Positions 150 to 63,956 of a stretch of DNA of 64,000 nt are shown here, one piece after another. The number at the start of each line of letters is the position of its first letter. The stretch's first letter is position 1. The position numbers and the translations under genes are program-made. This DNA comes from Norana najaformis (taxonomy: Eukaryota > Annelida > Clitellata > Crassiclitellata > Hormogastridae): NCBI GenBank assembly GCA_964023275.1, contig OZ029923.1:7546445-7610444 (forward strand), written 5' to 3'. The notes under the pieces are model-generated. The model was not told the origin of the DNA and did not search any database. It was given only the letters and a program-made list of their open reading frames with translations.

Positions 150-3100
150 TTAGCACTGCGATAGAACAAGCTGCTGGAAAAGGTCTAACAGAAGAACTGG
201 CAACATTGAGTGGTTGCCAGACTGGAGAAGCAAAAACAACTACAGGTATACATGCATGAATACATCCATACATATCCATACATACATAGGCCTACATACA
301 TGCATGCATGCATACATTCATGCATACATATATACATATGTAGGCCTATACACACATAGGCCTACATACATGTAATACGTACATACATAAATACATACAA
401 AAGTGCATACATACATAATTATCTATATAGATAAATACATACATATATACATACACAAATATATAGACATATATGCATATATATATATACATACACGCAT
501 TACAAGCACAACTGTTTAACATAATTAATTTTATTTTAAATGAGATATAAAGTAAAATTTGTCATTTCGATTTCAGGTTACAGATTGCCAGCAAAATGTA
601 AGTGCTTAAATCTAGTGTGGCATGACTAACTTGGTTTTGGTCATATTCTGACTTATACTGTACGTTAGCCTACCAGTTTTTTATCAGTAGGGTTCTAACT
701 GGGCCAATGCAACCTATAATGCCTCTTTAGCTAGTGTACTAGCTATTTAATTCTTAGATAAAATTAGGTTAATGCTTGAGCGAACTAATTATTTGAATTA
801 CATTAAGTTCTTAAGTTCCAAATGTGAATGGCTTAGTTAGATGATGAACTAAAGCTTTATATTCTAACAAATCAAATTGCCTCATCTGAATGTTAGGCTA
901 CGATTTCAGTAAATCGGTAAAACGTAGTTGCCATTTTATGACTTTGTTTCTGAATGTAGAATAACCCTCCCAACATGCCCATATGGACCCAAATGGGGCC
1001 CACATGGGACCCATATTTTCATATGTGATCCTTTTAAATGTTCGTCAAAAGTTCTTGGGCATGCCGGCAGAAAACGTTCACATAAAATAGATTTATGCCG
1101 TTCCAAACTTGTGCAGATATTGTACACACAGTGGGACCTCAAGATAATAATCAGCAACTTCTGGACACGTGCTACAAGAGCTGTTTGGAGCAAATGAATC
1201 TAAAGCAAATGAAATCACTGGTGAGAATAATTTGTGCGTCACCTCTTATTTGCACATTAAAAGAATTAGAAAGTTGATAACAATGTCAGATGCCCTGTAA
1301 ACACGAACATTAAGTAAAATGCAGGCTACACAAAAGTCGTAGTGAGAAGATTAGACATCAAGAATGAACAGTGCGTTAAGAAAATATTGTCAGGCGAAAA
1401 CGTAAAAAGGAGTAAGTAAAAATAAGATGGTAAGTGGCATGAGCATGTGCTACATAGAGAACAACAGGAATGCCACATATCACCTAAGAAAACTAAGACA
1501 ACGAAAGCGCAGCATAGTCTAATTATATGCTGCAATCAATTGTTAACAGTAAGAAGTTCGCCTAAAGAAACTTCCCAAAAGCTCGCTTGCTAAATTTCGG
1601 CAAGAGATCCTGCATTTTGCTGTTGTGGGTTCCTTTAAATATCTGAGTGCAGCTTGGATAGAACCGATTTTGTGGTAAATCAAGAAGCTCAATTACTAAT
1701 AGAAAATAATTGCGTTTTAGTTTGAGTTCTTTCTGGAATCTCACCGAATTCCATCAGAATATATTTTTGTCAAGGCTCTATAACAAGATTAAAAGCATCC
1801 CGTCACAAATATTAAATCCTAATTTTGCAATTTCATGCTTTTCAGGTCTTCTGCTGCATATCGACGGGTGCCTATGGTTAGTTTATTTTAAAATCTTAAG
1901 TTCTTTAAGATGGGAAATTTTCTAATCATTCTAAACGGGCCTTAAACCATGGAGTTCAGGCAGCTCTTTGCGAAATCCGCCTAACTATGTAGTTCCGTGA
2001 ATGTTCAGCGATTTCGAGTGATTCCCTATTTATTAGATAGTAGCGGTTTATAAATAAATGAATACATAAATAAGTCTATCTTCCATTCAAAGTATGAGGC
2101 AAACCATCTAGTAAACCTTTAGGCTATTTACCATGCTTACATGTTTGCAAACTCGGAAACATTAATGGGCACAGCATTAATTAATATATTGCCTAATTAA
2201 TTTTAAGAGAAACATTTTCTGTCTTAGGATGTCGCAATTCATTTTGAACGTCTTGTACGCCTTGTGTTTTAATTGAACCAGGTTATCCAAACGAAGCGGC
2301 GGCTCAAGTTGCCTTGAAAAGAGTTAGACTGTGGTTAGAAGACCTGAAGAAACGACAAGAAGTGAAACCATACTTTACCATATAACAATAACTTAGCACT
2401 GTCTTTGTCCGAATTAGCGTAAACTAAGCAGTCTTGATTCCGTGACACACTAGTAGAAGAGACATATTTTTATGTAACTGTTACATTACTTCCCAGCTTG
2501 ACCCCCGAATCCTGACCTGGCATTAAAAGCTGACCAATGAAGCCGACTCTTGCGGACTTGATTTGATATAGCCTGGCGTTAAGCTGGTTTCCGTAAAGAG
2601 GCTTTTATGTAGCGCTGAAAATCTCAGAGATTTACATTTACATTATATTTACATTTAAGGATTTGAGCCTACTATAGTTGCATTTATATTCGCAGGTGTA
2701 TAACAGAAATTGGCAGTACCCAATACTGATGCGTTTCGTAATCATAAGATGTAGATTTTCACATTAAATCTCATAATTATAATTTAATATCTGCAAGCAA
2801 GACAGGCATGTAGCTTGTCACGTATCTGTTTTGTAAACTAAAACAATAAATGCATATTTGTCAAGTACTTGTTTAATAACCCGTTAATAATACTTATCTT
2901 CAGTTGGACCAGATTGGTCGCATCGTATTTTGTCTTCTCGCATCAAAAGACGTTTCTGCCTACAAAACATGGACTCAAGTTTACTTCCCCTGTGGATCAG
3001 AAGGTTTGCCATACATGCTAAACTTTGAACACAAATTACGAATTTACCTCGATTAGGTACTCTACAAGTATGCGATTAGACTATTTTTGACACTTTGATA

Positions 3101-5579
3101 AGGCCATATTTCTATTATTTCGCAGGCAAGCAGACAAACAAGCAGGCAGACAGGTACTTATTAAAGTGGATGTTAATTTATTTAAAAAATATGTAGCGAC
3201 GTACTTTTTTATTACTGTTTTTCTTTCATTTATAATGCCCATGGGTAAAGAAAAAATAATTTTGACAGACTTGTTTGATCTGAGATTTATGTTGTGGGTA
3301 ACGCCCTGGCGCTGCTGTTCCCACCCTGGAAGATGCAGTGAAATTATTCTTTAGGCCTACTTGATTGGTGACAGTCCATGAAATGCTCTGTGGAGATTGC
3401 GCGGGTTACATCTAAATGATTTTCAAAGCAGGTGATGATGTTATTAATGTAATCTATAGTTGAATGGCAACGATTCTGATAAATTGCTATTGAAGTGTGT
3501 AATTTAGTGTATTGCCTTAACTTTCAACCTTTTAGCTGTTACTAAAACAAAACAATTCTGATTACTACAACAGATTATAATATACAGGATGTAGAGGTGT
3601 AGACCTACCATAATTTATATGTAGAATTTTTGCCATATATTTGGAATCACGTATTGCTAGGATATGTTTATTTAAATATATACATATTTAGATATTCTTG
3701 TTTGCTACCATACTAATTGGTCAATGGAGTTGTATATGTGATTAATTAATGTTACTGCAAAAAAATTATTTCGTTAAAAATCAGACAGTTATAAAGAATG
3801 GATGCTGCAGCAAAAGATTTCTGCTCTGCAACCGTTGGATGGATTCATTCAGATAACCACAACAGAACCAGATATGATTTTTGGCGATGATGATCCTAAC
3901 AGCAAGCGTGCAAAGATGCCTTGTGGTCACGTAATTGGTAACGTATCTTAGATGTACTATGAAATATGTGACCGTGCCTGAGAAAACCATAGTATGAAAG
4001 CCCTCAGAAAGTCGGAAAATCAATAAGCGGGAAATCGACTCAGAAGGAAGCTATGCATAAAATGGGTCCTAAATAGTTTGTGTATAATTTTCTCAAATAA
4101 GTGCATTATATCCCTCAAAAATGTTTCATGTCAAAGTTCATTCTACAAAACTAATTTTGCGAGTGAAAAATCTTTTTCATTTAGGTTAGATTCTACTGGC
4201 GATTTTCTAGACTTCTCGCGCAGAGATGTATATGTTTAATAGTCATAACATTTAAACTATTTTGTGATTAAACGTACAGTTTTCGCCAAAATGCTCTGCA
4301 CTTCCAACCCAATCCAACACAATTAAACCAATTTTCGATTTTTCAGAATTTGTTAGGGTTTTTCAGGCACAGTCACGTGTATAAGTCTGTATGCATCTTT
4401 CTGATTCGGTCGACTTCCCAGGTTTATGAATTTTGACTTGGAGTCGACCCAAAACAATCTGCCCTCTGGGTTTAGTCTTCATATTAGGTTCTGTGAATAA
4501 CCTCGTATCTTTGATATGGTTGTTTTAAACCCGGTGTTGATTGTTTCAAGAGTATAATTATGGTTACATTAATTAATTATTTATAGCTATTTGATACTAG
4601 TTCAGACAACTGTGCCTTTTAAAACCAGTTTATTTTATTACGTGTATTCCTCATCAGCTAATTTTCACAACTTTATACCTTGGTTTGTGTCTATGCTGAT
4701 TCAGAATTGACGCATAAACTATTTCATATACCTTTAAAGCTTGAAAAGGCTGTCTCGGAGTTTATGTACGACTTTTTCGCTACCAACTCAAAAAACTTCT
4801 GCACTGTGCAGAAGTGACAATATATTATTATAAATTTTAAAAGTTTCCTTTATTATGTCGCCTTAGGCTTGATATATATTTTTCAGATTGATAGATTGAA
4901 TGTCACAGAATGTTATACTTCCAACATGTCTTACTTTCTAGGACCTAAATCTATGACAGAGTGTTGCAGAGAGATTTTGAATCAGGGAAAGTACGCATTC
5001 TCCTGTCCAGATCCGAGTTGTAACGCAGAATGGCAATACTTCCTTGTAAGACACGTGGCCTGCTTGATGCCTTCTGAGATGCAGGAGTTCGAGAAAAGAA
5101 TATCGGAAAACTTCATAAAGAGAGAAGAGGAAAGTGCACAAAGGTGTCCCGGGTGTGACATATACTGCACCAGAAAGAACAAAAACAACAACTGTGTCGA
5201 GTGTCTTTTTTGCAGCAAGAAGAATGGAGTGCGTTACTTCTTTTGTTGGAAGTGTCTCGGCACCTGGAAGGGCGGAAACAATAACAGATGCGGAAACACA
5301 CGATGTCACGAGATTGATAATAGAGTTGAGATATTGGCAAACTGTCTTAATAAGTTGATTCTTGACAAATTTGATGCTCCGTCTTTGCGCGGTTGCCCAA
5401 AGTGTGGCATGTTGATTGAATACTTACGCTATTGCACTCAGATGAACTGTAAAGGTTGCGGGCACTTCTTCTGTTTTCTGTGTCTGGAAGGTGCTAAAAC
5501 AAAAAAGGAGCTGAAGTGTAATCCTTACAACTCAACTTGCAAGATTGCACCTCGTCAAACAGAGCTACCTGGAATGTAA
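150..5579 (+). CDS. Macro-RBR fusion ligase A (5' partial)
   Basis: MacroD-type macro domain fused to a C-terminal RING-between-RING (RBR) ubiquitin ligase module. The first two exons lie left of the window. Exons: 150-245, 577-597, 1117-1220, 1846-1876, 2282-2361, 2904-3003, 3785-3937, 4942-5579 (TAA); all junctions have AG/GT ends and the phases close in frame, giving about 406 residues. Macro signatures seen: GYRLPAK, IVHTVGP and STGAYGYP, as in MacroD1/2. The 3785-3937 exon carries TEPDMI and KRAKMPCGHVIG, half of a RING1. The last exon holds an IBR (CPGC to FCWKC), a RING2 (CPKC to FCFLC) and the family tail APRQTELPGM. Known of the families: MacroD proteins bind or remove ADP-ribose, and RBR ligases pass ubiquitin through a RING2 cysteine. 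Odd: the RING2 catalytic motif reads CTQ where genes B, D and E have C-x-H. Product assignment is firm; substrate is unknown. Confidence 0.9.
246..500. repeat. Degenerate CATA/TACA tetranucleotide microsatellite
   Basis: Imperfect CATA-type repeats fill most of an intron of macro-RBR gene A, broken by AGGCCTA words. Copies differ too much for a clean array, so it looks old. Confidence 0.85.
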
Positions 5580-8698: not shown

Positions 8699-11600
8699 AT
8701 GGCCAGTTTGTTTGCGTCGTTTTGGAGATGGGTTCGGAGAGGAGAAAGAACCACTAGAGAAGAAAGAACCGCGAGAGAAGAAAGAACCACGACAGAAAAA
8801 GTCTTCAGGCTGAAAGATATTAAGACATGGACGGAGAACTACAACGAGAACAGACGGGAGTTGGTCGAATCTCTAAACGGTAAGTGTATTTTAATCTAAT
8901 CTAATCTAGTCTGGTCTAGTTTGGTGTTAATGCATAACCATGTATTAATATATAATTAATGCTTGGAGATGTATAAATACCGCTTGTGTTTCTTAGGAAG
9001 CGATGAATTGCCACGCTTCGCAGAAGATCGGGAGATAAACGCGAAGGTATCTATTTATACAGGCGACATAACCTCTCTGCAGGTCGATGGTATCGTTCGG
9101 TCAACAGATGCCAGCCTGACATCCTCAGAAGGAAGTGAGTGCCATGATTGCAGTCCTCCAACTGACTGGACTTCCACAACGGATTACGACTTTTGACTAT
9201 TGTTTCTTTTGAAATGACTATCGATTGATGCTTCGTGCATTATGTTCACGGCGCTATAGAAGTTATTAGATTAGATTATATCAGGTCAGACCAGATTAGG
9301 TTAGATAAGTGATTTAAGGGAACTGAAGATGTGACATGAAATTGCAAAAGCACAATATTTGCACTTCGCCTCTGTTGTATTGGTCGAATTCCACTTAAAA
9401 CCAAGAGAAAGGTCCCAAAGCCTTGAACACTTTTTATACAGTTGAACAGTTGCCCGGGATATTGTTGTTGTTATTATTATTAATATTATTAATTAGTAAC
9501 TTCTATAGCGCCAGTGTATAATGCAGAAAGCATCATACTTGAGTGGGCGTTGTTATAGAGCATTTATTATTGTGGCGTGCAGCTGCTAAGCTTGCTTATA
9601 TAAGTATAATTGTATTTGTAATGACGACAATTTATAAGTAGCGAGCTACTTTCAGGGTATTTCACAATGTCTTTTCTCAGTGCACGTCCTATTGGTTAAA
9701 TAATAGATCGAATTTCAACTGTTGATGTTGCAGTTAGCGGAGTCATAATAAGAGCGGCTGGACCAAAGTTGAATTCGGAGCTGATATCCCTTGGAGGATG
9801 CAGCCCAGGAGAAGCCAAGACAACTTCAGGTATGATTTTAAGTCTGAAATCAGGGCATTGATTATATATCAAGTTGATAAGCTACATCCCAACTTCATAT
9901 ACAACAGAGCAGGCAAAATATTTCATTTATGAAACGTGAGAATAAAACTTGTCCAAATGAAAGCGATACTTTCGTTGTATGTAAGTAGCACACACGTCTT
10001 AAGTTTTGACTACAGCTGGCCCTTTTTTGGCTACCAGCCGCAACAACAGTCAACTATTTCTTCAAGATACGTACTGCAGTATGGTAGGGATATAAAATAC
10101 AACCATTCTCCATGCATCAAAATGAAATAGGTAAGGGTATAACACATTTTGTAAATTTACATGTTTTTCTGCAGCGATTGTATGGCCTCGACCGTGCTCA
10201 TGTTTCAATGAATTGATCGGGTGAGATCCTTCACCTCCGCTACCCGTTTGAATGGGCGCCACGCCATTAGGTCCCTGTGTACGGACCATACTAGCCCAAG
10301 ATTAAAATCTCTGAAATGTAGCCACTAGCGGTATGCGAACCGACGTATTCACGTCCAAAGGCGTTTTGACGTACGCTTTAACCAAATGCAGCAGACCAGG
10401 CAAGCGATTTGTTTATATCTTTCTATTGAAACTCCTCAGAAGCGCAGCCTCGGTCTAGAAAGTAGGCAGAGATTGAAACAGATCGAGTTATAATCAAACG
10501 TAATAGTAGATATGTTTGTAAAGGTGCACTATAGTAACACACCTTTATATACGCATTGTACAATTATTATTTAGACTTATGCGCTTCTGCTATAGCAGAG
10601 ACTTGTTTCTTTTCATTTGTAGGTTTCGACTTACCGGCAAAATGTAAGTACAGGCCGCTGCACTGATTTTCTTAATTTGGCTTCGAATTTTTTATGCAAT
10701 TTCAACGAGTTTTAAGCACCTCGCAGTACTTTAAAGAGGTACCTAAAAGCATGATTACTAGGTAACATGAACTTGTTTTCTTGTCACATTATTTTAAGCA
10801 TTTATCTTTTCAATTCCATCTATTTCAATGTTTAGAGAAGGTAAGATAAAGTACAATAAGGTAAGATAATGGGTCATTTAGTAAACAGATCCACCAACAC
10901 CAGTCCTGAGAAGTATAGACCTGAGGTCGAAGAGCATTTCGACTGAAGCACAAACATGACAGTAATAAGCCAATTATTATACAGAGGTGACGACATATTG
11001 TCGGTTTCACACGACGAATCGTGATTCGAATCACGGACGCTAAAGCGGAAGACAAAGACACGTGATCATGCATAAAAACCGGAAAAGCACAAAGCCGGAA
11101 AAGTTAATTTGCGAGAAATGCAGTTAGAAGGCAAGTAGGCATATGAAGGTCAAAATGAGTTCTTTGTTCCTTGTTCTGTGTTAACTATCAAACTATAAGT
11201 CCTTAAGGATAGTTTCATTGTCGAAGTATTTTTATATGAAGTTTATTATGATAACCTGTAACAAAAAAATCAAACATGTTCCCAGGTACCCTAATTTTAA
11301 GTCGTGTGCATCGATAATTATTAAGCAAATAACGTAAATATTTTTCTTACCAATTTTTATAGACATTTCATTGATGACAGCTAAAGAGGCGAATTAATAC
11401 GCGTCAATTTACATTTCTCATAAACGTTCACGACCCCAAGGCACAGCGACTTAGGTCGTGTCATATTTATGGTTAAACTTCACTCGCGATTACTTAAAGT
11501 AGCCGGGAAGAGATCTACATCTTTAAAAATTGTAACGTTTTTACTACTTGTGATAGAAAATGCGTTTTTCATTTAATTGTTCAGCAATTCCACCCCCATC

Positions 11601-14600
11601 CAGTGCAATATCAAACTCAGTATTGCTTTTTTCCGACGTTGTGATGGTCTTCTTATGCAGGGTCACATATTAGCAGTCTGCCATTGTGAAAAACGGAAAA
11701 CAGTGTGCATGGCCTTGCCTTCTCGTGTGTTTGACCTTCTTTACCAGTCCAAAGTTACCCTGTTCAAAGTTACCCTGACCTTTTCAAAATGCCTTTAAAT
11801 ACACTTGTTTAGATCAGTTAGATAGTAGTGTGAGCAGTTTTTTGTGAGGCACTTAAAAGGCGCTATATTAAGTGTCTGTATATATATATATATATACATC
11901 CATGGTCTAATATATTACACATTTCTATCTTAGATATTGTGCATACGGTCGGCATAAAGCAAGAGTTTCCAGACATTTTGGAGAGGTGCTACAAAAGTTG
12001 TTTGGAGCAGATGAAGTTGAATAACATGAAATCTCTTGTTAGTCTCTCTACATTTTCTTTAGTTATCTGTTTTAATGCACACTTTTAAATTTGGATTTAA
12101 TCATAATCAATATTTTCATCACAATAATAAATAAAAACATTTAGATGTTGATAATAATTAGGCCTATTGATATACTTGTCATATTCAAACACTTTCATGT
12201 AATCGTCCTGAATTTGCCTTTATAAGATTTCCTTATATTTTTCAGGCATTTTGCTGCATATCGACTGGCATTCATGGTTTGTAAAATTTTAAATGTTCAG
12301 ATTTTATTTACTGTTCATAAAAATAATTTCTTACTTAAAATTCTGTTTTTACAACAGAAATGGCAAAGTAAGCTTGAGTATCAGAATGTATGTTTGTTTG
12401 TGCATCCAATGCCTTTATTGGTAATGAGGTTAGCAGGCAATGTTAATGTTAAGTTGCTAATAGTCGAGCAAGTGCATGGCCTCGCTTACTGCAGAGCAAA
12501 GTACTGTTTATCATGGTGGAACTGTGACAATTGGCATCTAGCTAAAGGGCTTCAGCATTGTTGCCTAGTACAGCGAGTACGGGAAAGATTGGTAGACGTG
12601 GATTCAGGGTTTGATGTTAGGGCGAAGTGACAAAATGACAAAAGTTTTATGTTCGTTAGTAACTAATGCATTTGTTAACACGCCATATGTCCATCAGCTG
12701 ATCGAGGAATCGTAGGCATGGGTGGGTCACAGAGGTCAGATAATAAATGCAAGACGGCACAAATAGGTCTTAAGCCGCTTTACGAATATGTTAAGCAAAA
12801 TGACAATATTTTGAGTAATACAAACAAGGAGAGTGTGATGTTGATGATATGACACTGGCAATTATTTTGAAACTAAGTAATCATGCCCATGTGTGTATTT
12901 CTATACATTTTAAATTTTATGGTGATGCTTAATATGTCCTACGCTTATTGTTGAACAGGCTATCCGAATGACAAAGCAGTTCTGGTGGCTTTGGAAACTG
13001 TTCGGCTTTGGTTGGAAGAGTTGAAAACGGAAAACAAGGTGGGATTTGGTTACATGTATCAAGTGGAAATATGTAACTAACCATACAAATCATTCGATAG
13101 CCTACATTATGGGAAAACTCCACTTGCTTGCTATTATAGTAGAAGTGATACTGCATGTATAATACAGCCTATATGAGCATCCTGTAATGTATAAGCCCTA
13201 TAGTTTTGGAAAAGATAAGTCTTTAAAAAGATCAACAAGATATCGCGAAATTAGCAAGTGTGATCATATGTTCTGTTATGCTATGTCATGTCCTGTTATG
13301 ACGTGTTATGTTGTTTTGTTGATGACCAGCTGGATGAAATAGACCGCATCGTGTTCTGTTTGTTTTCGGAGCTTGATGAAATGCTGTACAGCTTCTGGAT
13401 GCAAGTCTTCTTCCCTTGTCCACCAGAACCAGAAGCCATATGTGCACCAAGTCAGTAAACTCGTTCTAAACTCTCTCTCTCTCTCTATTATATATACATG
13501 TACACTGTATGCTCTCTATATAGGGCTAAGACACATGTATTCAAACCATGCAGGGTTCCTTGTCGTTTTTGCCAAAAATGTGCGGTCGTTACAAGGTTAA
13601 GAGGAGGGAGAGGCTGGAGAGAGGTTAAACCGGGAGCAACAGGGAATTTTCTCTGGAAGGAACGTTTTGCTAAACTAGAGCGTGGATGCTCTGCGCGTAA
13701 GAGTGGAGTTATTAAATAACGTCGATCAAATGAGCCCATGAAAGAGAGCTGCGTTGTATTTATTGGCTAATTAAAAGCTATTTTGCCAAATTGACAAAGG
13801 TAGCCGTCCTGTGCCTCAGAGCATGTGTTCGTTATACGTGTCCAGTATCCGAAATGTTTATTATCACGAGTTTTTTTGTACCGTATGCCTCTAACCAACA
13901 CCAGACAGGCTGAATAGTTTCTTGTGAGACCAAGTTATAGCATAAGTGGGAAAGAAACTTAGGCAGCATGTAGCACGTGCGGCCATACTTAGGAGGCTAG
14001 AAAATGCATAACAACATACACAACAAGATGTTCTTGACATAAATTTTTATATGACATTTTATTTTGTAGCGTTTTACTAGACATAGATCTGATGAATTAC
14101 ATGTAAAGAATATTTATGCATGGGTTACAATTTTATAGTGTCTGTACCTGATCTCTCAAAGACCACACGATCTGACTATCTGACAGATCTAAATGATGTG
14201 ACTTAGTGTAAGACGAAAATGTTTATATAGCGCCCTTTGCAGATTTCTACTCGGAGTTAATGTATAATCATGACGTTAAAGGTTTGTACGCAAAGTTAGC
14301 GTATGGCGTGTTTGTTAGATACAGAAATCTTACCTCCAGGAGTGGATGGAAAGTGTCTTTCGGGTCCAAATAACGGAGACTTTGAAGACAGCTTCTCGTC
14401 GGTGGGAAATTCCATTCAGCTGGAACTAAAGGAACTACGCCCTCTGCCGGGCTTCATTGAAATAACTACTGAACCGGATATGATAACTCTTGATGACGAC
14501 CAAGACACGAAGCGAGCAAAGATGCCATGCAGCCACGTTATCGGTAGGCTGTGCAGAGAGATTAGAGTAGTTAACACCGATACTTCTTAGTGTACTAACT

Positions 14601-43835: not shown

Positions 43836-43887
43836 TTTGGTGACGACGAATGATAACGACAGCGATGACAATGATACTTTGTGAAGA

Positions 43888-48409: not shown

Positions 48410-50620
48410 ATGTTGTTGCAGTTAGAAGGAATACCAACATGGACAGAATTGTACAACAGCGATAAAGAAGAGCTGGTCAAGTGTCTACTAACCAAAGGTC
48501 TGCTGAATTTTTCGACAATATTTGATTATAATGTACTATTAATGTGTAAACAAATATGGTCATGTTTATTAGGACTAGTGCAGCTTAACATGCTGCAGAA
48601 GTGACAACTCCAGCTCTGGGGTTCAATTCCCGCAAGAGAAGAAAGATGTTTAGAATTTTTTCTGCTCAACTTGTGCCCCTATCGAACTCAGCTAAAACGA
48701 GAACACTGACCGTACACTGTCATATGCCGAGGCTAAGAAAAATGAAGCCGCTAACACTTCCTGCCCATGGCTGCTTCTCGTGGTTATGTTAATGGGCTTA
48801 AAAGGAGTTTAAATGTCACTGTTCAGACTTTAGTTCCATGGAATGTTTATAAACTTAGGTCTAATGTCTAATTGAATAATGTGCTAGATGCTCATGGTCG
48901 AGTTTTCGATTGGAATCAGTGGGAGAATGGGAAATAGGTGCTAAATGAAAGAGGAAGTACATATGAAACAAAGATAGGAAGTTTTCCAATTCCTTTATAT
49001 ATCTCACCCAACTAGTATATTGCGTTACATTTATTTTCTGAGATAGGTGATTAATTAGAGCTATTAAGATTCTGCATATATTTGCAAATTTGATGACAGA
49101 GAAGTTTTAGTTAGTGTGCCTTATATTCAATTCTAATCAAATTTTAGGATCGCTATGAAATCATTTCTGACAATACAGCAGACCAATCGCTTAACCCAGT
49201 CTCGAAAGGCAGCCAATAATATAAATTGTTAAGGGTTTCATTTTCTGAACGTCTATATGGTTACTTTGAACCTATTCATCAATTTACTATGAGGATAATA
49301 GCATTGGAGAATATTTAATTAAAATTAAATACTCACAGTTTACGTACTTATTATCATTAACTTTACGCAAGTGATTGTGCTAATTTTTAATGCAGTGTAG
49401 GCGATACTGAGTCAGTAAAACAATTCACGAGTTTACCGTATGTCCAGGTGATACGTGTAGGCAAGAAATTGAAAGTGAATTTGAGATAGATCCGGAGATC
49501 AACAGCAAAATTTCACTTTTTGAGGGCGATATTACCTGTCTTCAAGTAGATGGAATCGTCAGTCCAAATAATAACTATCTGGAAGCTACTGGAGGAGGTT
49601 TGTTTTTTCTATCTGATTTGTTACCTATCGTAATCCTAAATCGTAATAATAAACTCGAGATCTCTACAGCGCCCTTAGAAAACAGTGTCGTGAGAATCAG
49701 GCGCTCAGTCAAAATAACAAGTGACTTAGAAAGTTCTTGCTAAAATAACCAGCATACAAAGTCGGCGCATAAACATATGATTTTAGAATAGCTAATTATT
49801 ACTCGCGACATAAAGATGAAATTTTCTATCATGTACATTGCATTATTCACAAAATGTCTATATTATATGAATGCAGTGTGGAGTCAGACTTTAAATCGTC
49901 ATAGGCCTACATCTCCCTATTTTTGGAAAATAGTGTCTATTATCGAGACAAACCTCATTATTTGACTTTTGAACTTTTTTCTTGTAGAATTGACCCAGGA
50001 GAACATGACATTACTCGCATAATGCGAATATTGCTATTTTAACAGCGTAAATGACAAAGTAATTTGGTCATCCAATTTGGAGTGACTAATTAGTTACAAA
50101 GTGTTAAAAATGTACCTTACCGCGTCTGACACATGATTAAAACCACCTAACACATATGCATACATGCACAGAAACACGCACACAAGCAAAATTACATACA
50201 CGCATGCATACGTTCATACATGCATACACACATGCACGCATACATGCATATATACATACACACATAATGGATGCATGCACATACTTACATGAAAATATTT
50301 TAACATTTCGTTGGTTTTGGGTTGTTTAACTTTCAGTTAGTCTTAAGATTCAAACTGTTGCCGGTCCAGAGTTTGAGAACGAAACAAGGAAGTTGAATGG
50401 GTGTCAAACAGGAGAAGCCAAGACAACTTTGGGTAAGCAGAGGCACATGCAAGTTACATTGTTTAGGCCATAAGGCACGGTTTTCACTTCTTCACTGGAG
50501 GAGAATTTAATTGATTGCATTCGATTATATTAGAATTTACTAGAATAAAAGTGAATTTCATTGCACCTCAGATTCATATAATTTCTCTTTGACTGTGTGC
50601 ATCATCAATTTTCATAATGA

Positions 50621-50663
<43 letters not shown>

Positions 50664-53600
50664 AAAATAATAGAATGTATTAGAATGAAATAGTATTGTT
50701 TTGTGTTGTTTGTACTGTATTATAATATATTGAATAGACTATAATTTACCAAAATATTATAGAAATGATTCATTGAAACAGACCGAGAAAAGACCTAATT
50801 CATGTAACTAAATATCTAAATTTAACAAAAATTATATAAACTAAAGTAAAATAGAATTAAACAAATTAAATCATTTTGGATCAGGTCATATTGCATTAGA
50901 GATCATTTCTGGCAATATTCTTATTTACTGATCGGCCATTTATGCTTTCAGGTTTCAAATTGCCAGCCAAATGTGAGTGTGACTTTCAAATGAATAAAGT
51001 ATTCCTATGATTTGAAATTTATTAATAAGCTACACATGCCAAGTCTCAAGGAACTTGGTATCTACTTTAATTTATAGCTTACAAAATTTCTAAAGATTCG
51101 GGATCATTAGACAACCTATTCGAATATAATTTTTTTTCTGCAGCCGTTTCAGGCTTCATTGTGTAAAATCATTCATTTTATGAATTGCTCTAGCTGTTCT
51201 TTCAGTATCTTCCATTGTTATCTGCAAAACTACTCAATTAGTGTATAAGTGTGCTACCTTTATCTTTTACCTTAGACGTCGTACACACAGTTGGTCCACA
51301 GGAAGTGGAGCCAACACTTTTGGAGAGTTGTTACAGAAGTTGCTTGGAAGAGATGAATAAGTGTCCAATGAAATCTCTGGTAAAGTTACCTTCTTCTATA
51401 TGATTTATTCTTTTCAATAGAAGATCATAGACCATCAGTTTATAAATGACCATGGATGTTATGATTACGGCGCTATAGAAGTCAAAGGATTTGAGTAGAT
51501 TAGATTAGAGACATTTGGAAACATTTTCTATTACCTGGAGCCCAAAAACGCTCTGTTCGGGCATCTCTCCCTCATTCTCTCTTTTCTTCGTTGGCATTCT
51601 ATGTGAAACGTCAAGAATGCAACCTTTGAACCTACTTAAATATTACTATTCTTATAGCATTTCTTTGCCATTTTCATTTACTGGATTTAATATTAGTTTA
51701 TGAGTTCTGTTTTAGGACGTAATTTTGTTTCTAATTTAGCTGGCAGTAAGACCCGTTTGACCCCGTTTTAGGCTATTTATCGTAGACTTATTTTATATTA
51801 TTTTCATTAACTGAATTGTTTAATTAATTAAGTCATATTTTAATATATTTTACTCTTTTCGATATTTTATTTGTCAAAATAGATGGCTGCAAATTTGGCA
51901 CCAAAATGTATCGGAGTTTAAGTAATTTTGAACTTCTTATTTGCAGGCATTCACCTGCATTGCTACAGGTTCATATGGTTAGTAACTTTATACAGCCAAA
52001 TGTATTACCCAACCCATAATATTTTCCAATTAAGGTCGGGAGAAAGTGCAAAGTTTACGAATAAGTTTAGACTTACGACTCTTTTGTACGTAGACTACAG
52101 TTTTAGTTGGCCATGATTAACCTGGAAAAATTCGTTCTTTCTCTTGAAACGATTTGGATTTACACGAATTCGCTTTAAACATAGTAATTTTCACCCCAAT
52201 TGAAGAATATCACGAAGAGATATAATTAAAAAGCAATACTCGATGATAAACTGCTTAATAAACACCGCCGCTGTGAATTAATTGTGGAAAACGTTGAAGA
52301 TACTATGACAAATTCACACAAGTTACTTAACAAAAGATCATTGGAAAGCTATATACTTTGTCGAGAATATTGATACAGGTGTCTTGCCTACATATGAATG
52401 GTTTTAGTCTTACTTGATGTCCCCTAATTCTAATTTGTTCCTTAAAGACAACTTTGCCAAATCTACTCTTGTGCTTTTTTATATTTCTAACAGGATACCC
52501 AAAAGACAAAGCCGTTCTAGTGGCGCTGAAAACCGTTCGTGTATGGTTGGAAGAACTAAAATACCAACAACAGGTAAGTTTTTTATAGTTATTTTAGGCT
52601 TGCAACTTTGTGCGTATAATCTAGCTGAACAGTTTAATGTTGAGCAACTTATGCAATGTCGAAATAGTGTAGATTAAGGCTTAGACATGTGTCAAGATGT
52701 TATAAACACTCCGAACTGTTTGGTAATTGGTATCAGGCTCGGATTACCAAACGGGCAATTGATGATACCTTTAAACTTTTAAGTGTATATTCATTTTTTC
52801 TCATTTTTATAGCCGCTCTATCTAATTTCCATTATCAGGATGCATTGCCTTCTTGTTGATGGTTTCTATACAGTGATCGTTTCGGGAGAATCGATCTTTT
52901 AAGCCAAATTATAACTAATTCGTTTAAATTAAACACGAGGTCACATTACTCTGTAATTGTATGCAAAACAAGTTCTGTAACTTTAATTAGCCGCTTATTT
53001 CAGCTGGATAAGATTGATCGGATCATATTCTGTCTGTTTACACCGGGCGACTTGTCTCTGTATAGAACCTGGATGCAAGTTTTCTATCCATGTCCGGAAA
53101 TACCTCACAGTAAGTCGTTGTATCGCATACATAAAGAACATTAGTAACATACATGCTGTCATGGAGTTCACGGTAAATGAATATATCAGACTGTTTGTCA
53201 TTAAGGATGCAAAATCTTTCACATTTCGCTCCTGCTCGTGTGTATTTTCCTTAGTGGCAATCACAAATTGCAGAATACAGCAATCATATAATTCTGAATT
53301 TTTTATTCTTTACAGAAGTTTACTTTAAGAAGATTTTGAACTGTAATAAAGGAACTGAACATTAATGTAAGCTGCTTAAATTGTTGCTTAAAATATTGAA
53401 TAGAGAACTTCTTCCGTTGCGTGGATACATCAAAACAACCAGAACAGAACCAGATATGCTTGGTTTAGATGAAAGTCCTGTCCGAGCTAAGATGCCCTGC
53501 GGTCACGTAATCGGTATGTCTTCAGTTTCTACAAAACTTCAGACTTTGGCTCAGAAAGTACTCTCAAAATAACATTGTAAAATTATGCCTTTTAAAAATA

Positions 53601-54892
53601 ACTATATGCCCATTACACTCTTATTCGAAGTTCTTTATTACAACAGTTTGGCCTTGAATCTTGTCACTTTCGCAAGGGTATTATTATTATTATTACTACT
53701 ACTACTACTACCACTACCACCACTACTACTACCACTACTACCACTACTATTATTACTACTAATATTATGCCTATAACTAATTCTGCATTTATTAAGCTCC
53801 ATTATCTATTTACTAAGCATCAAACAATGGCGCTGAGCAACTGTGAGTGAAGGACTTACTCAGTAGCAGTCCCTGGGAGGTCCGAAACCGTACTCATTGC
53901 TTTACAAGTGCAATCGGCTACTAAGCTCCAGTCAATTTCACTCGAGAGAGTAATCTCTTAAGCTCCACATCCACGGCCATTATGCAACCAGATATTCTGT
54001 TAAACAGCTGCAAATTTAACAAACACAAAGGCAAACAGACACTAGACTCTACATTTTATATCAAAGTTAGTGGAGCCGAATAAGACGACAGTAGAAATAG
54101 CTTGTTTTAAGCACCGCACGACCCCTGTAAACCAATATTTCTCGCTGGATTTTGTACTCACTTCCTGTTTAATCTCACTATCAATGATATGAAATTTAAG
54201 AATGACAATGTTCGTTCATTTTCACAGTGGTTCTTGTTTCAGGACCAACGTCAATGACAGACTACTGTAGAGATCTACTCAAAAACGGTCGATACAAGTT
54301 CTACTGTCCTTCTAATGGACCCCCATCGTGTAACCGTGAGTGGGAATATTTCCTCGTTCGTCATGTCGCTCGTCTAACCGAGCAAGAAATGCACGAGTTT
54401 GAGAGAAATATATCTGAAAATTATCTGAAGAAGGCCAGTGGAATGCAGAGGTGTCCTGGTTGCCAGACCTGGTGCTTTCGTGCTCCGGGCACCGGCAGTT
54501 GTGTCCGATGTCCAATGTGCACCACACCCAGCGGCAATCATTTCGATTTTTGTTGGTGGTGCCTGAAAACCTGGAGAGCTGCCAGCGCCAATCAACCATG
54601 TGGTAACACAGGCTGCGATGGAAGAGATTTAAGGCTCAAAACCCTGGAAACTTGTCCTACGAAGAAGATAAACTACTGTCAAGACTGTCCAAGCATTCGC
54701 GGATGTCCAAAATGCGGCATACTTATTGAGCATAAGGACAAATGCGGACACATGGACTGCACCAATTGCGGCAACTATGGATTCTGTTTCATCTGCCTAA
54801 AGGAAAAGAAGAATGGGAAATGGCAATGCTCGCCTTGGGAAGGAACATGCAACCGTGCTCCACGCCAAACTACTCTTCCTGGAACTCAGTAA
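48410..54892 (+). CDS. Macro-RBR fusion ligase E
   Basis: Exons: 48410-48497, 49448-49597, 50337-50432, 50952-50972, 51276-51379, 51947-51977, 52494-52573, 53004-53109, 53406-53513, 54243-54892 (TAA), about 477 aa. The start at MLLQLEGIPTWTELY is chosen because IPTW begins the MacroD-like lead-in. Macro signatures: GDIT, VDGIV, NNN, GGG, GFKLPAK, VVHTVGP, ATGSYGYP. This is the copy closest to canonical MacroD: the Asn is kept, but the catalytic Asp position is Ser. The RBR exon has RING1 half, IBR (CPGC to FCWWC), RING2 with KCGHMDC and FCFIC, and ends APRQTTLPGTQ. Two weak splice sites: donor GTCTGC after exon 1 and acceptor GAG at 53406, chosen because only it restores phase 1. A strong acceptor at 53315 leads to an early stop, so a macro-only form is possible. 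Confidence 0.88.
48571..48645 (+). mobile_element. tRNA-like SINE head in intron 1 of gene E
   Basis: B box GGGGTTCAATTCCCGC preceded by a tRNA-like left half and followed by AGAAAGATGTTTAGAATTTT, resembling the sequence after the SINE head at 38458-38530. Confidence 0.5.
49626..49720 (+). repeat. ATCGTA-tailed dispersed repeat, copy 6
   Basis: AACTCGAGATCTCTACAGCGC after an ATCGTAA run, ending near GGCGCTCAGTCAAAATAAC, in intron 2 of macro-RBR gene E. Confidence 0.6.
50621..50662. repeat. (ATT)n microsatellite
   Basis: Pure ATT run in intron 3 of macro-RBR gene E. A CATA/CACA-type tract lies upstream at about 50150-50290. Confidence 0.95.
51440..51510 (+). mobile_element. LINE/SINE 3' tail in intron of gene E
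   Basis: GATTACGGCGCTATAGAAGT followed by TTAGATTAGAG, the tail shared with the LINE at 38755-39600. Confidence 0.5.
53316..53365 (+). other. Possible alternative terminal exon of gene E
   Basis: TTTTTTATTCTTTACAG is a far better acceptor than the one used in the RBR-containing model. Joined to exon 8 it adds 16 residues and ends at TAA (53363-53365); AATAAA lies inside at 53345-53350. It would make a macro-only protein. Confidence 0.4.
53680..53768. repeat. (ATT/ACT/ACC)n trinucleotide microsatellite
   Basis: Triplet repeats in the last intron of macro-RBR gene E. Confidence 0.95.
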
Positions 54893-57245: not shown

Positions 57246-57545
57246 TGCATTAAATTACAACCTTTGTAGAAAAGCAGAACAATGTAGTTTTATAGAAGTA
57301 TGTTATGCAAACTGTCATAAAGTAAAACTGCATGACAACAAGAGCCTCGTAAAACAGTACGCTAAAAGCAGTTTAGCGCGTTGCATTCATGGCACGTTTT
57401 GCAGATGGCTGCCTGATATTAGTAGGCTAGTGTTTTGTGATGCTATTTATTAAAACAAAATCTAGGAAACATCAAACCAGAGGGCCAACATAAATAGAAT
57501 TGTTCCTCCAATCCAGTCCGGAAACCTAAACTTTTGACTACCTTC

Positions 57546-57641
57546 AGACCAAGAAGATCGACCGACGCAAAGACTGTCCGAGCGTTCGCGGATGTCCAAG
57601 ATGCTGTCTACTGAATATGCACAAGGATCGATGCGCGCAAG
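57546..57641 (+). pseudogene. RBR relic, RING2 fragment
   Basis: Reads TKKIDRRKDCPSVRGCPRC, then CLLNMHKDRCAQV, matching the IBR-RING2 linker and first part of RING2 in the cluster ligases (compare CPSIRGCPKCGIL in gene C). It stops exactly where the duplicated block of gene F begins, at GTGCGCAATGG, so the rest of RING2 was cut away by that rearrangement. The CAQ triplet points to a gene C-like parent. No upstream RBR half was found nearby. Confidence 0.8.
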
Positions 57642-57999
57642 TGCGCAATGGAAAACGATCGGAATTTACTGGCTTTAGTTTTCTCTCTTTCATCAGTGCT
57701 GTAAAAAATTGACAAAGCTAGGTCATTAGGGTGCAACCTACAACCTAGAAGAGATCATCGTCCGCTTACTTAGGGCCCCGCATTAACATGCAATACGGGG
57801 TTACATATGGCTACGAGAAACCTCACTTAGGCCTAATGTTTAGTCAATAGTCCATATAGTGAAATCTTAATTGTACTAAAGTTAAAGAAAAGGGGTCATA
57901 TTCATTACCTTGTAAGGGTCATGAATATGAAGCAAATCATGTATATGACCATACTTATAAAATAAAATCAATATTACCCATTGTTCTCATCATACTAGC

Positions 58000-58750: not shown

Positions 58751-61700
58751 ATGGCCAGTTTGTTTGCGGCGCTTTGGAGATGGCTGCGGGGTGAAGAAGC
58801 AGTCACCAGAAGAGATATCGTCAGGCTGGAAGATATTATAACATGGACGGATCTGTATAACGAGAACAGACTGGAGTTTATTGATTCTTCAAACGGTAGG
58901 CAAATTATAATCAAATCTAGTCTAGGATGGTCTAATTTGGTGTTGGTATGGTGTGATCCGATCTGATCTGATTTGGTCTGGCCTGGCCTGGTCTCATCTT
59001 ATTTGGTCTAGTGTGAGCTAGTCTAGTGTCTTGTCTGGTATAGTGGTCTAGTCGAGTTTGGTTCGGTGTGGTCCGGTTTAGTATGGTCTAATCGGGTCTA
59101 GTCTGGCCTGGTCATGTCCGATTTGTTCCGGACCAGAGTGATCTGGTCTGATGTGGTCTAATGTCTAATCTATAAGATAATAAAGAATGGCTATAATGAG
59201 TAAATCTTTGGAACTATGGGATTTCGATTGGTCTCAGAACGTAAGCTGGATCGACCAGGAACTGTCGCAACCGGATGCAGAACCTGGATAAATAGGATGG
59301 AGCCAGTCCATGCTGGCATTAGTAGGCAATCATAGCTAGTTTGTAGTCAACTCTTTGTGGAAGAGACAGCCAGGGTAATTGCTGCCTCATCAGATCTGAC
59401 ACACTGGTTGAACTTGGCAGACGGAGCGTGAGTCGCGCGGCAGTACGTAAGACAGATTGAAGTTTGCTGTACATTATAAGAATCGGGGTAAACCTGCCAG
59501 AATACTGTTACAGTAATCAAATCGACATATAACCAAAGCTCGCACCAAGGCATGCGCAGTCTCCTGAGTAAGCGAGCGACGAACAAGATATAAACGCCCA
59601 CATGCAGGAGCAGAATATGTACTAATCCTATTTTATTCCGACGCAGTAGGTTTCCCTAAAGAGAATTTTCCATTTCTATAGCGTGCGACATTGTGATACC
59701 GCGCGTGGTTGGTAACCGGTCGATTGCGGGTTCGAGCTTCTACTGTAGCCAGCTCGGACAAATTGTTTATGCCAATGTGTCTTTCTCACAAAGCAATACA
59801 ATTTGATATCGGTATGAGAAGGTAAGTGAACAGCAAGTGTGATTCACCTGCTCCGGATTAGCCCACTGCTGCCTCGAAGTCCTACGAGTCGGAAATAAGC
59901 GCCTCCCCTACGTCTTCATATAGCGGTGTTATCGTAGCACTCAATGTATGAAATCGATCGAATGTCAATGGTAGACAATGGAAGAGAAGTGTAGGCCTAT
60001 ATATGCGTGACGTATCTTATGAGTTTGACCTTTATACAGCGCCTTTAAGAACCTCTTACAGGCTTCTACTTGGCTCATGGAACTCATGCCGTCTGAGCAC
60101 ACTTAAAACAGTTTAATTACAATCTTCTGTTTTAATTAACTTTAACATAATTTAGACCAGCCTAGACAGCGCCTCTGATTAGTTTTTTTTTTGAAGTGGC
60201 ACTATGTAAATTTCTTCTTGCAATTACAATTAAAGTTAAGTACATTCTTAAACAAGACTGCCGCTTGTGTTTTCTTTAGAAAATGATGATTTACCACAAT
60301 ACACAGAAGATCGGGAGTTGAACGCGAAGATATCTATTTACAGAGGCGATATAACTTCTCTCCAGGTCGATGGTATCGTTCGATCAACGGATACCAGTCT
60401 GACATCCACAGATGGAAGTGAGTGCAATTGTTGAAATCCTCCGATTCAGTGGACTTCCACTACGCATTACGACTTTTTACTACAATTTCCTTTTAAATGA
60501 CGATCGATTGATGCCTCGTGCATTATGGTAACGGCGCTATGTATGTCATTAGATTAGATTATTCTTGATCAGATCAGACTAGGTTAGACAAGCGATTCAT
60601 GGTAACAGAAGATGTGAGATATAAAATTGCAAGAAACACATCTTTGCAAATCTCCTATATTGCATTGGTTGAACGACACCTAAAGCCAAGGCTAAGATCC
60701 TAAAATCTTGAACAGTTTTTGCACAGTTGAACAGATGCCCAGGATATTATTATTATTAATTAGTAACTTTTATAGCGCCTGTGTTTAATGCATAAGGCAT
60801 CAAGCGGTGGCGCACTACACTTGAGTGGACACTGTTATAGAGACGTCTATATTGATCAGTAATTGCATTAAATTGGCGTGCAGTTGCTAAACTTGCTTAT
60901 ATAATTGTAACTGTAGTTGTAGTGGCAACGATTTATAAGTAACGATCTACTTCCATGGTATTTCACAATGTCTATTGTCAGCGCAAATGCTAGGAATTAA
61001 ACAATAGATAGAATTTCAATTGTTCTGCTGATGTTGAAGTTAGCGGTGCCATAAAAAGAGCGGCTGGCCCGAAGTTGAATGCGGAGCTGAAAGCCCTAAA
61101 AGGATGCCGCCCAGGAGAAGCCAAGACAACTTCAGGTATGACTTTAAGTCTGAAATCAGGGCACTGACTATAAGTCAAGTTGATAAGTTATATCCCAGCT
61201 TCGTTTGCAACGCCGCAAACAAAGTATTTTTTTCTGAACCTTAGGAATAAGTCTTGCAAAAACTAAGGTGATGCCTTCATTGTATGTATGAAGTATAAAC
61301 GTCTTCATTTTTGATTACTGCTTGTCTTGTGTTAGCTAAGAGCTGCAGCAGCAACTTCTCCTAGACACGTACTGCCGTATGGTAGGGATATAAAATGTAT
61401 TCATTCTCCTTACATGCATCAAATGAAATGGACAAGAGTAACACACGTGTTTGTATTCTAAAGAAACTCCTGAGAGGGTGAGCCCTTGTCTAAAAGAAGG
61501 CAGAGATTAAAACAGGTCGAGTTATAACCAAAAATAATAGTATATTATATAAGCTTATGTTTGCCAGTGTACACTATAGTAACGTGCCTTTATTTACGCA
61601 TTGTACAATTTGTAATTAGAGTTACCCGCTGCTTCTTTAGCAGACTTGTTTCTTTTCATTTGTAGGTTTCGACTTGCCAACAAAATGTAAGTAGAGACTT

Positions 61701-63956
61701 TGGTCCCTTCTGGGTTCTCCTTTTGTTTCCTTCAACAATTGTGAATATTATGCTTTTCGCTGTTATATTTCTCTTTTTGGATCAATAAAAAAGAATGTTA
61801 TGTTATGTTATGTTGCACTGATTTTCTTACTTTGGTTCTAAACGTTTCATACAATATTAACAATTTTATGCAACTCTCAGCGCTTTTAGAGATACCTAGA
61901 AGCATGATTACTAGATTACGTCAGCTTCCTTTCTTGTCACATTATTTGTAAAAATGTACTTTTTATTTCTACCTATTTCAATATTTAGAGAAAGTAAGAC
62001 AAGGTACGGTAAGGTAATGGTTGATTATTACACAGCTCCACCAACGCCAGCCTTCCTATGTGTAGTCCCGAGGTTAAGGAACATTTCGACTGAAGCGCAA
62101 ATACGACAGTAGCAAGCCAATACCTAGAGTTGTTCCTTATGAACAACGAAAGAGGTGACGACAAATTATCGGTTTCACATGACATACCGGGATCGGAATC
62201 ACGGTCGATGAAGCGGGAGGCAAACATGTGCGACCATGCTTAAGAAAACCCTTACAAAGTCGGAAATGTTATTTGCGAAAAACGAGCTTAGAAGGCAAGC
62301 ATGCATAACATATGTCAAAATGAGTTTTTTTCATATTTTTATTACTTGTTGTGTTAACTATCAAACTATGAGTCCCTATAGAAACTTTCGCTAAGTATTT
62401 TTATTTCAAGTTTATTATGATGCCCTGCAAGAAAAAATCAAACATGTTCCTTGGTGCCCTAATTTAAAGACGTGTGCGTCGATAACTAATATGGAAGTAA
62501 CGTAAATATTTTTATGGACATTTCGTTGATGAAATTCAGAGGCGAATGAATACGCTCCAATTTACTATTCTCACGGGCATTCACGACCCCTAGGCCCAGT
62601 GACTTAGGGCAGGTCATAGTTATGGTGAACCGTAACTCGCGATTACTCAGAGTAGCCGGGAAACACGCGGTTTTCTTTTAATTGTTCAGCAATTCCATGG
62701 CACAATCGAGTCCAATATCAAACTCAGTTTTGTTTTTCCCGAAGTTGTAAGGGATTTCTTATGCTCGGTCACATATTAGCAGGCTGCCATTATGAAAATC
62801 GAAAAACACTGTGCATGATCAGTGTGCATAGCCTTGTCTTCTCGTGTGTTGGACCTTCCTTAACAGTCCAAACTTATCCTGCTCAGCGAACCCTTTCAAA
62901 CTGCCTTTAAATGCACTTATTTCAATCAGTTAGATTGCCATGTGTTCAGCTGTTTGTGAGGCACTTAAAAAGCGCTATATTAAGTGTCTTGATACATACA
63001 TATATACATGCATGCACACATACATATATATATATGGTCTCATGCATTGCACATTTCTGTCTTAGATATAGTACATACTGTTGGTACAAAGCAAGAGCAT
63101 CCAGACATTTTGGAGAGGTGCTACAAAAGTTGTTTGGAGCAGATGAAATCGAAAAACATGAAATCCCTCGTTAGTCTCTACATTTTCTTTGGTTTTCTGT
63201 TTTAATGCACGATTTTAAATTTAGAATTTAAACATAATCGATATTTTCATCGCAATTATAAATAAAACATTTAAATGTCGATGCTAATTAGACCTATTGA
63301 TGTACTTTTTATATTCAGAAACTTTCGTGTAATCGTCCTGAACTTGCTTTTTTAAGAATTTTCTTATTTTTTCAGGCATTTTGCTGCATATCAACTGGCA
63401 TTCAAGGTTTGTAAAATTTAAAAATTGCAGCTTTTAATTTACCGTTCATAAAAATTATTTGCTACTTGAAATTCTATTTTTACAACGGGAATGGCAAACT
63501 TAGTTTGAATATCAGATTGTATGTTTGTTTATGTATCCATTGCCTTGTGCTAATGATAAGGTCAGAAGGCTATGTTCATGCTAAGTGGTTAATAGTTGAG
63601 CAAGTGCATGGCCTCGCAGAGCAAAGTACTGTTTATCATGGTAGACTGTGACATTTGACACTTAGCTAATTGGCTTCAATATTGTCGCCTGGTACAGTGA
63701 GTACTGGAAAGATTGGTAGATGTGGATCTAGGGTTTGATGTTAGGGCGAAGTGACAAAATGACACTGGCAATTATTTTTGAAACAAGTGTAACTATGTCC
63801 ATATGTGTATTTTTTATATATTATAGTTTATTTATAGTTTGTGGTGTAGTTGATAAGACCTGCCCTTTTTGAACAGGCTATCCGAGTGATAAAGCAGTTC
63901 TGGTGGCTTTGAAAACTGTTCGACTTTGGTTGGAAGATTTGAAAAAGGAAAACAAG
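58751..63956 (+). CDS. Macro-RBR fusion ligase F (3' partial)
   Basis: Seven exons in the window: 58751-58895, 60280-60417, 61040-61135, 61666-61686, 63066-63169, 63376-63406, 63877-63956, coding 205 residues in phase; the rest lies to the right. Recent duplicate of macro-RBR gene B: MASLFAALWRWLRG start, RLEDIITW lead-in, GDITSLQVDGIV, GFDLPTK, VHTVG, STGIQGYP. The MacroD catalytic Asn and Asp positions are again Asp and Ser. Exon 1 lacks the hexapeptide repeat of gene B. The exon 3 acceptor reads GAAG rather than TGCAG, still an AG but a poorer site. An RBR end is expected from the family but not seen. No premature stop occurs in the visible exons. Confidence 0.88.
58905..59172. repeat. Degenerate TCTGG/TCTAG pentanucleotide satellite
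   Basis: About 270 bases of TCTGG, TCTAG and GGTCT variants in intron 1 of gene F. Gene B has only about 40 bases of a similar TCTAA/TCTGG tract at 8894-8933, so it expanded in this copy. Confidence 0.85.
59680..59755 (+). mobile_element. tRNA-like SINE head in intron 1 of gene F
   Basis: GCGTGGTTGGTAACCGGTCG and TGCGGGTTCGAGCTTC form an A-box and B-box pair; the right half does not pair as an intact tRNA. Confidence 0.5.
60492..60565 (+). mobile_element. LINE/SINE 3' tail in intron 2 of gene F
   Basis: GACGATCGATTGATGCCTCG then GGTAACGGCGCTATG and a TTAGATTAGATTATT end; duplicated counterpart of 9210-9290. Confidence 0.6.

Follow-up and report, generated by a model that had tools for sequence, protein, structure and literature searches.

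A same-strand gene cluster of the annelid Norana najaformis combining macro, ubiquitin-like and RBR ligase modules, with likely MacroD-RBR fusions

The stretch of DNA analysed here, referred to as the window, comprises 64,000 nucleotides of the annelid Norana najaformis (assembly GCA_964023275.1, contig OZ029923.1, positions 7,546,445 to 7,610,444 of the forward strand) and carries a cluster of genes built from macro domains, ubiquitin-like (Ubl) domains and RING-between-RING (RBR) ubiquitin ligase domains. The modules were found by comparing the stop-to-stop frames of the window with each other, followed by reading of the exon borders and searches for first exons and microexons. The recurring plus-strand modules are the macro exons, a linker exon (L) that ends with the start of RING1, a long RBR exon (R) and the two Ubl exons U1 and U2. 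They make up ten spliced gene models, all on the plus strand and with AG/GT borders and matching phases (Table 1): the macro genes G1, G2, G9 and G10, the Ubl-RBR genes G3 and G7, and the genes G4, G5, G6 and G8, which code for a Ubl only. An earlier note on this DNA had described ten same-strand genes of these three modules, and the spliced models and the Pfam matches agree on that count. The Pfam family Macro is found in all four macro models (E 3e-27 to 3e-31) and the ubiquitin family PF00240 in five of the six Ubls, above the cut-off in G4, G5 and G6 and below it in G3 and G8; the Ubl of G7 has no such match and was assigned through alignment to the family. IBR families, searched for in the RBRs of G1, G2, G3, G7 and G9, lie above a Pfam cut-off in all of these except G9, where the match is only below it. 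Four macro-RBR genes had been claimed for the window, and the four macro genes stand; however, the RBR of G10 lies outside it and G1 starts upstream of it, its exons M0 and M1 falling in L001. Both genes described as Ubl-RBR have this make-up, but G3 retains RING2 with RING1 and IBR mostly gone, and its C-terminus is unlike the family. The cluster is real and its architecture is unusual; what is said below of its function is inferred.

The cluster continues on both sides. G10 runs past the end of the window with M5, two L exons and an RBR (in L002), the latter at C11:7615556-7616200, 5.1 kb beyond the window end. The L exon of a Ubl-RBR gene at C11 7.54 Mb (E4) is interrupted by an in-frame stop, and a further part of the cluster at C11:7.41-7.43 Mb contains a Ubl-RBR gene (E1), a broken RBR (L006), a macro-RBR gene (E2) and Ubl exons. 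The Ubl of E1 is indicated by U2 (E 7e-7), U1 reaching only E 0.06. When the RBR exon of G7 was used as a query against the whole genome, 42 candidates were scored and 32 places, located on C11, C2, C5 and C7, matched with E no higher than 0.001, some of them containing stops. For the copies at C2:42 Mb (L014-L017) and for L010, neither a Ubl nor a macro N-terminus was found. In one of the C7 copies, a weak Ubl match is separated from RING1 by a long insert that is acidic and repetitive (SVAESxPxxTDEE-like; L011:5916-7409).

The derivation of the macro part of these genes from MACROD is well supported by sequence comparison. The macro profile has MACROD2 as its top match in the PDB (E 8e-55), and two microexons lie at the expected intervals in all four macro genes: one of 21 nt, coding for GYRLPAK (G1), GFDLPAK (G2), GFKLPAK (G9) and GFDLPTK (G10), and one of 31 nt, coding for VFCCISTGAYG, AFCCISTGIHG, AFTCIATGSYG and AFCCISTGIQG, respectively. 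In each of the eight intervals, the observed score was above that of all 200 dinucleotide shuffles. An intact MACROD gene is located at C11:11.847-11.850 Mb (L021), 4.3 Mb from the cluster; it has the same exon order as the window macro genes, both microexons and intact NAAN and VDGAIH motifs. The window macro domains are 53-54% identical to it and, in an alignment and tree of the four window copies (E2 left out), form one clade versus this gene and human MACROD2 (support 99/97). Since the introns were kept, duplication at the DNA level is more likely than retroposition. The cluster macro domains thus resemble MACROD1 and MACROD2 in their best PDB match and in the exon structure common to the MACROD gene of this genome, but differ from them in being joined to an RBR and in the altered His/Asp dyad and NAAN motif. 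An exon-by-exon search of the genome with the macro domain of G9 gave, among its best candidates, 27 matches at E up to 1, of which 18 fall into five macro-RBR copies (four in the window and one at 7.42 Mb), three into the MACROD gene at 11.85 Mb and six into more distant macro loci; among these candidates, a macro-RBR fusion occurs only in this cluster.

It is likely, judging from the predicted exon borders, that the MacroD and RBR parts are fused in one polypeptide. The M5 donors of G1, G2, G9 and G10 are all in phase 1, phase-1 acceptors are present before L, and only 296 bp separate M5 from L in G9, where none of six ATG-to-GT candidate exons has a good donor; fusion is therefore the most economical reading, and the joining proposed in the earlier note is supported. 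Alternatively, separate single-domain macro and RBR genes might alternate along the strand, the join being only apparent. M5 of G2 and G10 reads to a stop a few codons past the donor (CAPSQ, then stop), which makes a macro-only product possible. However, the common phase in all four genes argues against this arrangement, and so does the shortage of first exons for independent RBR genes: in addition to the G9 gap, the gap of G1 holds ten ATG candidates and that of G2 24, with one better donor each (in G1 on a candidate of three codons), and the ten better ones listed among the 270 candidates in the 3.5-kb gap of G10 all lie in an inserted reverse-transcriptase frame. Moreover, the Ubl exons that provide the start of the Ubl-RBR genes were not found in the M5-L gaps by self-comparison of the window frames; the Ubl-RBR genes G3 and G7 have the end of the Ubl and the linker within a single exon. 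Separate genes are thus considered very unlikely. The reverse-transcriptase frame in the intron of G10 between M5 and L is long (L002:1385-2654) and presumably belongs to an element of the long interspersed nuclear element type.

Table 1. Gene models and RBR relic of the window (window positions; E, Pfam E-value).
Feature	Type	Strand	Extent	Exons	Model length	Pfam matches and remarks
G1	macro-RBR, partial	+	150-5579	150-245, 577-597, 1117-1220, 1846-1876, 2282-2361, 2904-3003, 3785-3937, 4942-5579		Macro E 4.6e-29; IBR E 4.3e-7
G2	macro-RBR	+	8699-16545	8699-8879, 8997-9134, 9734-9829, 10623-10643, 11934-12037, 12246-12276, 12959-13038, 13330-13450, 14388-14543, 15911-16545 (10 exons)	520 aa	Macro E 3.2e-27; IBR E 5.4e-6
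G3	Ubl-RBR, RBR eroded	+	17938-20970	17938-18000, 19278-19365, 20041-20292, 20603-20970		ubiquitin E 2e-5 (below cut-off); IBR_1 E 1.8e-6
G4	Ubl alone	+	23365-25149	23365-23430, 24097-24181, 25019-25149	93 aa	ubiquitin E 6.8e-7
G5	Ubl alone	+	27584-28992	27584-27655, 28148-28235, 28880-28992	90 aa	ubiquitin E 5.2e-6
G6	Ubl alone	+	31376-33375	31376-31447, 32470-32557, 33206-33375	109 aa	ubiquitin E 4.5e-6
G7	Ubl-RBR, full RBR exon	+	35282-40745	35282-35347, 35712-35799, 37244-37486, 40090-40745	350 aa	IBR E 2.8e-10
G8	Ubl alone	+	44859-46653	44859-44921, 45654-45741, 46505-46653	99 aa	ubiquitin E 9.5e-4 (below cut-off)
G9	macro-RBR	+	48410-54892	48410-48497, 49448-49597, 50337-50432, 50952-50972, 51276-51379, 51947-51977, 52494-52573, 53004-53109, 53406-53513, 54243-54892 (10 exons)	477 aa	Macro E 2e-29; IBR_1 E 5.9e-4 (below cut-off)
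RBR relic		+	57530-57685			stops around; between G9 and G10
G10	macro exons M0-M4	+	58751-63956	58751-58895, 60280-60417, 61040-61135, 61666-61686, 63066-63169, 63376-63406, 63877-63956		Macro E 3e-31

The His/Asp dyad that marks a MacroD-type macrodomain is changed in all four window copies. The position of Asp102 of MACROD2 is occupied by Ser in each of them, and at the position of the dyad His they have E (G1), I (G2), Q (G9) and K (G10); in the MACROD gene at 11.85 Mb, the dyad is intact. NAAN reads CCNN in G1, SPNN in G9 and RSTD in G2 and G10, and loop 2, IY in the reference, reads AY (G1), IH (G2), SY (G9) and IQ (G10); the macro domain of E2 has RSTD, S-G-A-I-K and IH. In contrast, GDIT is retained in G2, G9 and G10 and GYP in all four copies. 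The dyad roles were taken from PMC7050489 and the loop criteria (Asn/Ser..Gly in loop 1, a hydrophobic-aromatic pair in loop 2) from PMC10221186, each in excerpt. Because the dyad is changed throughout, the window macro domains are probably readers rather than erasers of ADP-ribose, which refines the earlier statement that MacroD domains handle ADP-ribose: the Macro assignment holds in all four, and the substituted catalytic positions point to reading. Asp102 is part of a proposed dyad and is missing from some hydrolases (PMC7050489), and an active macro domain with Ser at this position has been described (PMC11920425). Macro activity was lost repeatedly, and single catalytic substitutions would likely leave the reader function in place (PMC10221186, excerpt); the window copies, however, carry several such substitutions each. 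It is also conceivable that these macro domains bind no ADP-ribose at all and serve as protein-binding or structural modules, the RBR acting on unrelated targets. The changed loop residues in all four copies, GNIT in G1 and RSTD together with IH or IQ in G2 and G10 would fit such a role, but the retained GDIT and GYP motifs do not, nor do the ratios of nonsynonymous to synonymous substitution (dN/dS) of 0.105-0.46 in the four of six macro pairs for which an estimate was obtained. Given also what is said of single substitutions in PMC10221186, a loss of ADP-ribose binding appears rather unlikely, and we regard the domains as probable readers.

On the ligase side, a profile of 18 RBR exons has ARIH2 (E 1.5e-10) and ARIH1 as its best PDB matches, ahead of parkin. 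The Cys pattern of IBR and RING2 is present, and the Cys aligning with the catalytic Cys of RING2 is invariant in all 18 aligned copies (G3 left out). RING1 is unusual: ten L exons have no Cys-x-x-Cys in the approximately 30 residues before M-P-C-[GS]-H, L010 having one single Cys, and RING1, judging from the sequence, thus appears to lack its usual first Cys pair and not to have the two zinc sites expected of it. Parkin and HOIL-1 are Ubl-containing RBR ligases, and G7 resembles them in that a single protein carries an RBR behind an N-terminal Ubl. The cluster genes differ from them by a short linker between Ubl and RING1, the missing first Cys pair of RING1 and the closer match to ARIH2 and ARIH1. 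The predicted G7 protein ends in CTIL (window 40731-40742), which resembles a CaaX prenylation box.

The Ubl profile of the family has ubiquitin as its best PDB match, with the GG in register. All four free Ubls retain GG and an R at the position of R72 of ubiquitin: G4 ends in LRVPGG plus 11 residues, G5 in VRLHGG plus 5, G6 in VRLLGG plus 24 and G8 in VRLHGG plus 17. NEDD8, SUMO and ISG15 are made with a C-terminal tail, and with R-x-x-GG and a short tail the free Ubls resemble such precursors, each being a single Ubl. They differ from ubiquitin, NEDD8, SUMO and ISG15 in sharing their exon structure with the Ubl part of adjoining Ubl-RBR genes. The Ubl modifiers that had been proposed to be encoded by the cluster accordingly have a conjugation-type end in their predicted sequences. 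In the fused copies, GG (VG in L018) is followed by the linker, with W-P in G3, E4, L018, L019 and L020; the Ubl of G7 ends in LPACGG and has lost the equivalent of R72, and that of E1 has no GG. The few cases hint that the free forms retain a usable C-terminal end; the contrast between free and fused copies is weak, however, since the fused Ubls of G3 and E4 retain both R and GG. Ubiquitin-type ligands activate some known RBR ligases, and the free Ubls might likewise remain unconjugated and serve in trans as activators of, or decoys for, RBRs without a Ubl of their own. Such a role would suit their position next to the macro-RBR genes, which have no Ubl, and parkin is regulated by its own Ubl (PMC3940038, excerpt). 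However, the GG and the R conserved in all four free Ubls, compared with the loss of R in fused G7 and of GG in fused E1, speak weakly against this, and we consider a purely trans-acting role somewhat unlikely. Two further Ubl sequences were noticed: a fragment of true ubiquitin with the end LVLRLRGG and an in-frame stop inside the array (L007:4265-4370), and two tandem Ubl matches in one frame of 167 aa at C10:1886082-1886528, an ISG15-like layout.

The N-terminal modules and the RBRs have been reassorted between neighbouring genes. In a tree of 20 RBR exons, from which G3 with its RING2 only had been dropped beforehand, G1 pairs with the Ubl-bearing E1 (100/99), G2 with E2 (100/100) and G9 with G10 and L010 (100/99), and the latter group joins the Ubl-RBR genes G7 and E4 (89/96); L019a is counted as a Ubl gene by linker similarity only, and the C7 copies and L020 by weak matches. 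A single RBR clade of the five macro-RBR genes is rejected with an approximately unbiased p-value (p-AU) of 7e-68, in a test run after the tree had been seen and with the group defined by the macro domain. Reassortment follows because the macro domains of the four window genes group in a single clade, while the RBRs of the five macro-RBR genes do not. G10 is a hybrid gene, since its macro domain is G2-like (82.6% identity, or 76% including the first exon), its RBR is G9-like (91% identity) and, of its two L exons, one is 93.5% identical to that of G2 and the other 97.2% identical to that of G9. Recombination is the presumed mechanism.

Nei-Gojobori dN/dS could be estimated in 19 of 42 pairs and ranges from 0.105 to 0.64, the other pairs being saturated and many of the estimates being based on dS above 1. 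By module, the values are 0.105-0.46 for the macro domains (4 of 6 pairs), 0.12-0.41 for the RBRs (3 of 21) and 0.12-0.64 for the Ubls (12 of 15); the recent pairs give 0.46 (G2-G10 macro), 0.41 (G9-G10 RBR), 0.26 (G1-E1 RBR) and 0.64 (G5-G6 Ubl, the stretch with G6 being a duplicate, at the DNA level, of that with G5). These values suggest that constraint is present, but not strong. The locus could also be read as a decaying tandem array with little function, given the eroded G3, the relic at 57530, the L exon of E4 with its in-frame stop, the broken RBR in L006 and the dN/dS of 0.64 of the recent pair G5-G6. Nevertheless, nine of the ten window genes have open frames and consistent splice sites over the parts seen, and dN/dS is below 1 in every pair with an estimate, which renders this highly improbable.

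We propose, with a probability of roughly one half for the explanation as a whole, that the Ubl of an older Ubl-RBR ligase was exchanged for a macro domain, and that this gave rise to ligases aimed at ADP-ribosylated targets. The ancestral form would be a family of Ubl-linker-RBR ligases, considered older because other RBR loci of the genome show Ubl-like parts, a macro part being seen only at the RBR loci of this cluster. In one or more genes, MACROD exons would have replaced the Ubl exons at the DNA level, as the exon structure suggests, and the fused macro domains would have lost the MacroD catalytic features, so that they most likely bind ADP-ribose or a related ligand and do not remove it. 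The macro-RBR proteins might thus be drawn to ADP-ribosylated targets, to which ubiquitin or a cluster Ubl would be passed from a conjugating enzyme via the RING2 Cys. In parallel, some Ubl genes may have lost their RBR, leaving free Ubls with GG and a short tail that could be modifiers themselves or trans-acting activators of RBRs. The setting may be stress or defence. PARP catalytic domains gave 48 matches at the exon level (E up to 0.001), and writers of ADP-ribose are therefore likely present in the genome. At C10:19.93-20.00, C14:15.88-15.90 and C7:30.25 Mb, PARP and Macro matches are near each other, which suggests tandem macroPARP genes.

Several observations weigh against this proposal. 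In G1, N replaces the D of GDIT, which makes binding by G1 doubtful; G1 and G9 retain N at one NAAN position and loop 2 of G1 reads A-Y, so that a reader function is less firmly indicated for these two than for G2 and G10. The splice sites are predicted: G1, G2 and G10 have weak donors after M5 (GTTTGC, GTCAGT; in G1, GTGAAA after M4 and GTTTGC after M5), and the L acceptors are in part ambiguous, G1 and G2 having more than one phase-1 choice, including that of the G2 exon at 14388. The missing first Cys pair of RING1 makes binding of the conjugating enzyme uncertain. In five of the 18 aligned RBRs (G1, E1, both C7 copies and L015), and likewise in G3, Q takes the place of H two residues after the catalytic Cys, and the AlphaFold model of the RBR exon, based on four window sequences, is uninformative (mean predicted local distance difference test score 47.5).

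The earlier note had further envisaged a lineage-specific pathway, possibly serving defence, in which Ubl modifiers and ADP-ribose marks are read by dedicated ligases. This idea is supported in part, by the likely MacroD-RBR joining and the GG ends, and is refined by the reader-like macro domains and the reassorted modules. In its most far-reaching version, the pathway would be self-contained: cluster Ubls would be matured at GG and handed by the macro-RBR ligases to ADP-ribosylated targets or to ADP-ribose itself, with specificity being reshuffled through macro and Ubl swaps between neighbours. We consider this unlikely. The closest parallel is PARP9-DTX3L, and macroPARP-Deltex pairs in general, of vertebrates, in which a macro domain likewise works with a ubiquitin ligase and some macro domains are inactive or of reader type (PMC10221186, PMC12687431, excerpts). 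These are, however, two proteins with a Deltex-type ligase, whereas the cluster combines a MacroD-type domain and an RBR in one predicted polypeptide. According to the excerpt of PMC12687431, ADP-ribose reading and ubiquitin transfer are coupled via WWE, PBZ, Deltex or macroPARP partners. In agreement with the earlier remark that no MacroD-RBR fusion was known, none is described among the best matches in the open-licence literature, as far as mostly titles and the beginnings of abstracts tell. If made as one polypeptide, a MacroD-derived domain and an RBR would form a direct link between the two modifications, and this link seems to have an origin of its own. The neighbouring free Ubls would allow one to ask whether splitting a Ubl-ligase gene yields a new Ubl system, and the genome's own intact MACROD gene offers a natural control for a step from eraser to reader.

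Searches of viral and prokaryotic collections confirmed no relative among 14 and 273 pattern matches, respectively. No Pfam family above the cut-off was found for seven minus-strand and three plus-strand open reading frames of the window; Rfam gave no match, and NCBIfam none for two RBR exons. Between G7 and G8 lies a 225-bp tandem duplication (window 43883-44326). Outside the window, L008:2-6679 contains a minus-strand open frame of about 2226 aa, and nuclear COX1-like fragments with stops are located at C15:412069-412726 and 570464-571281.

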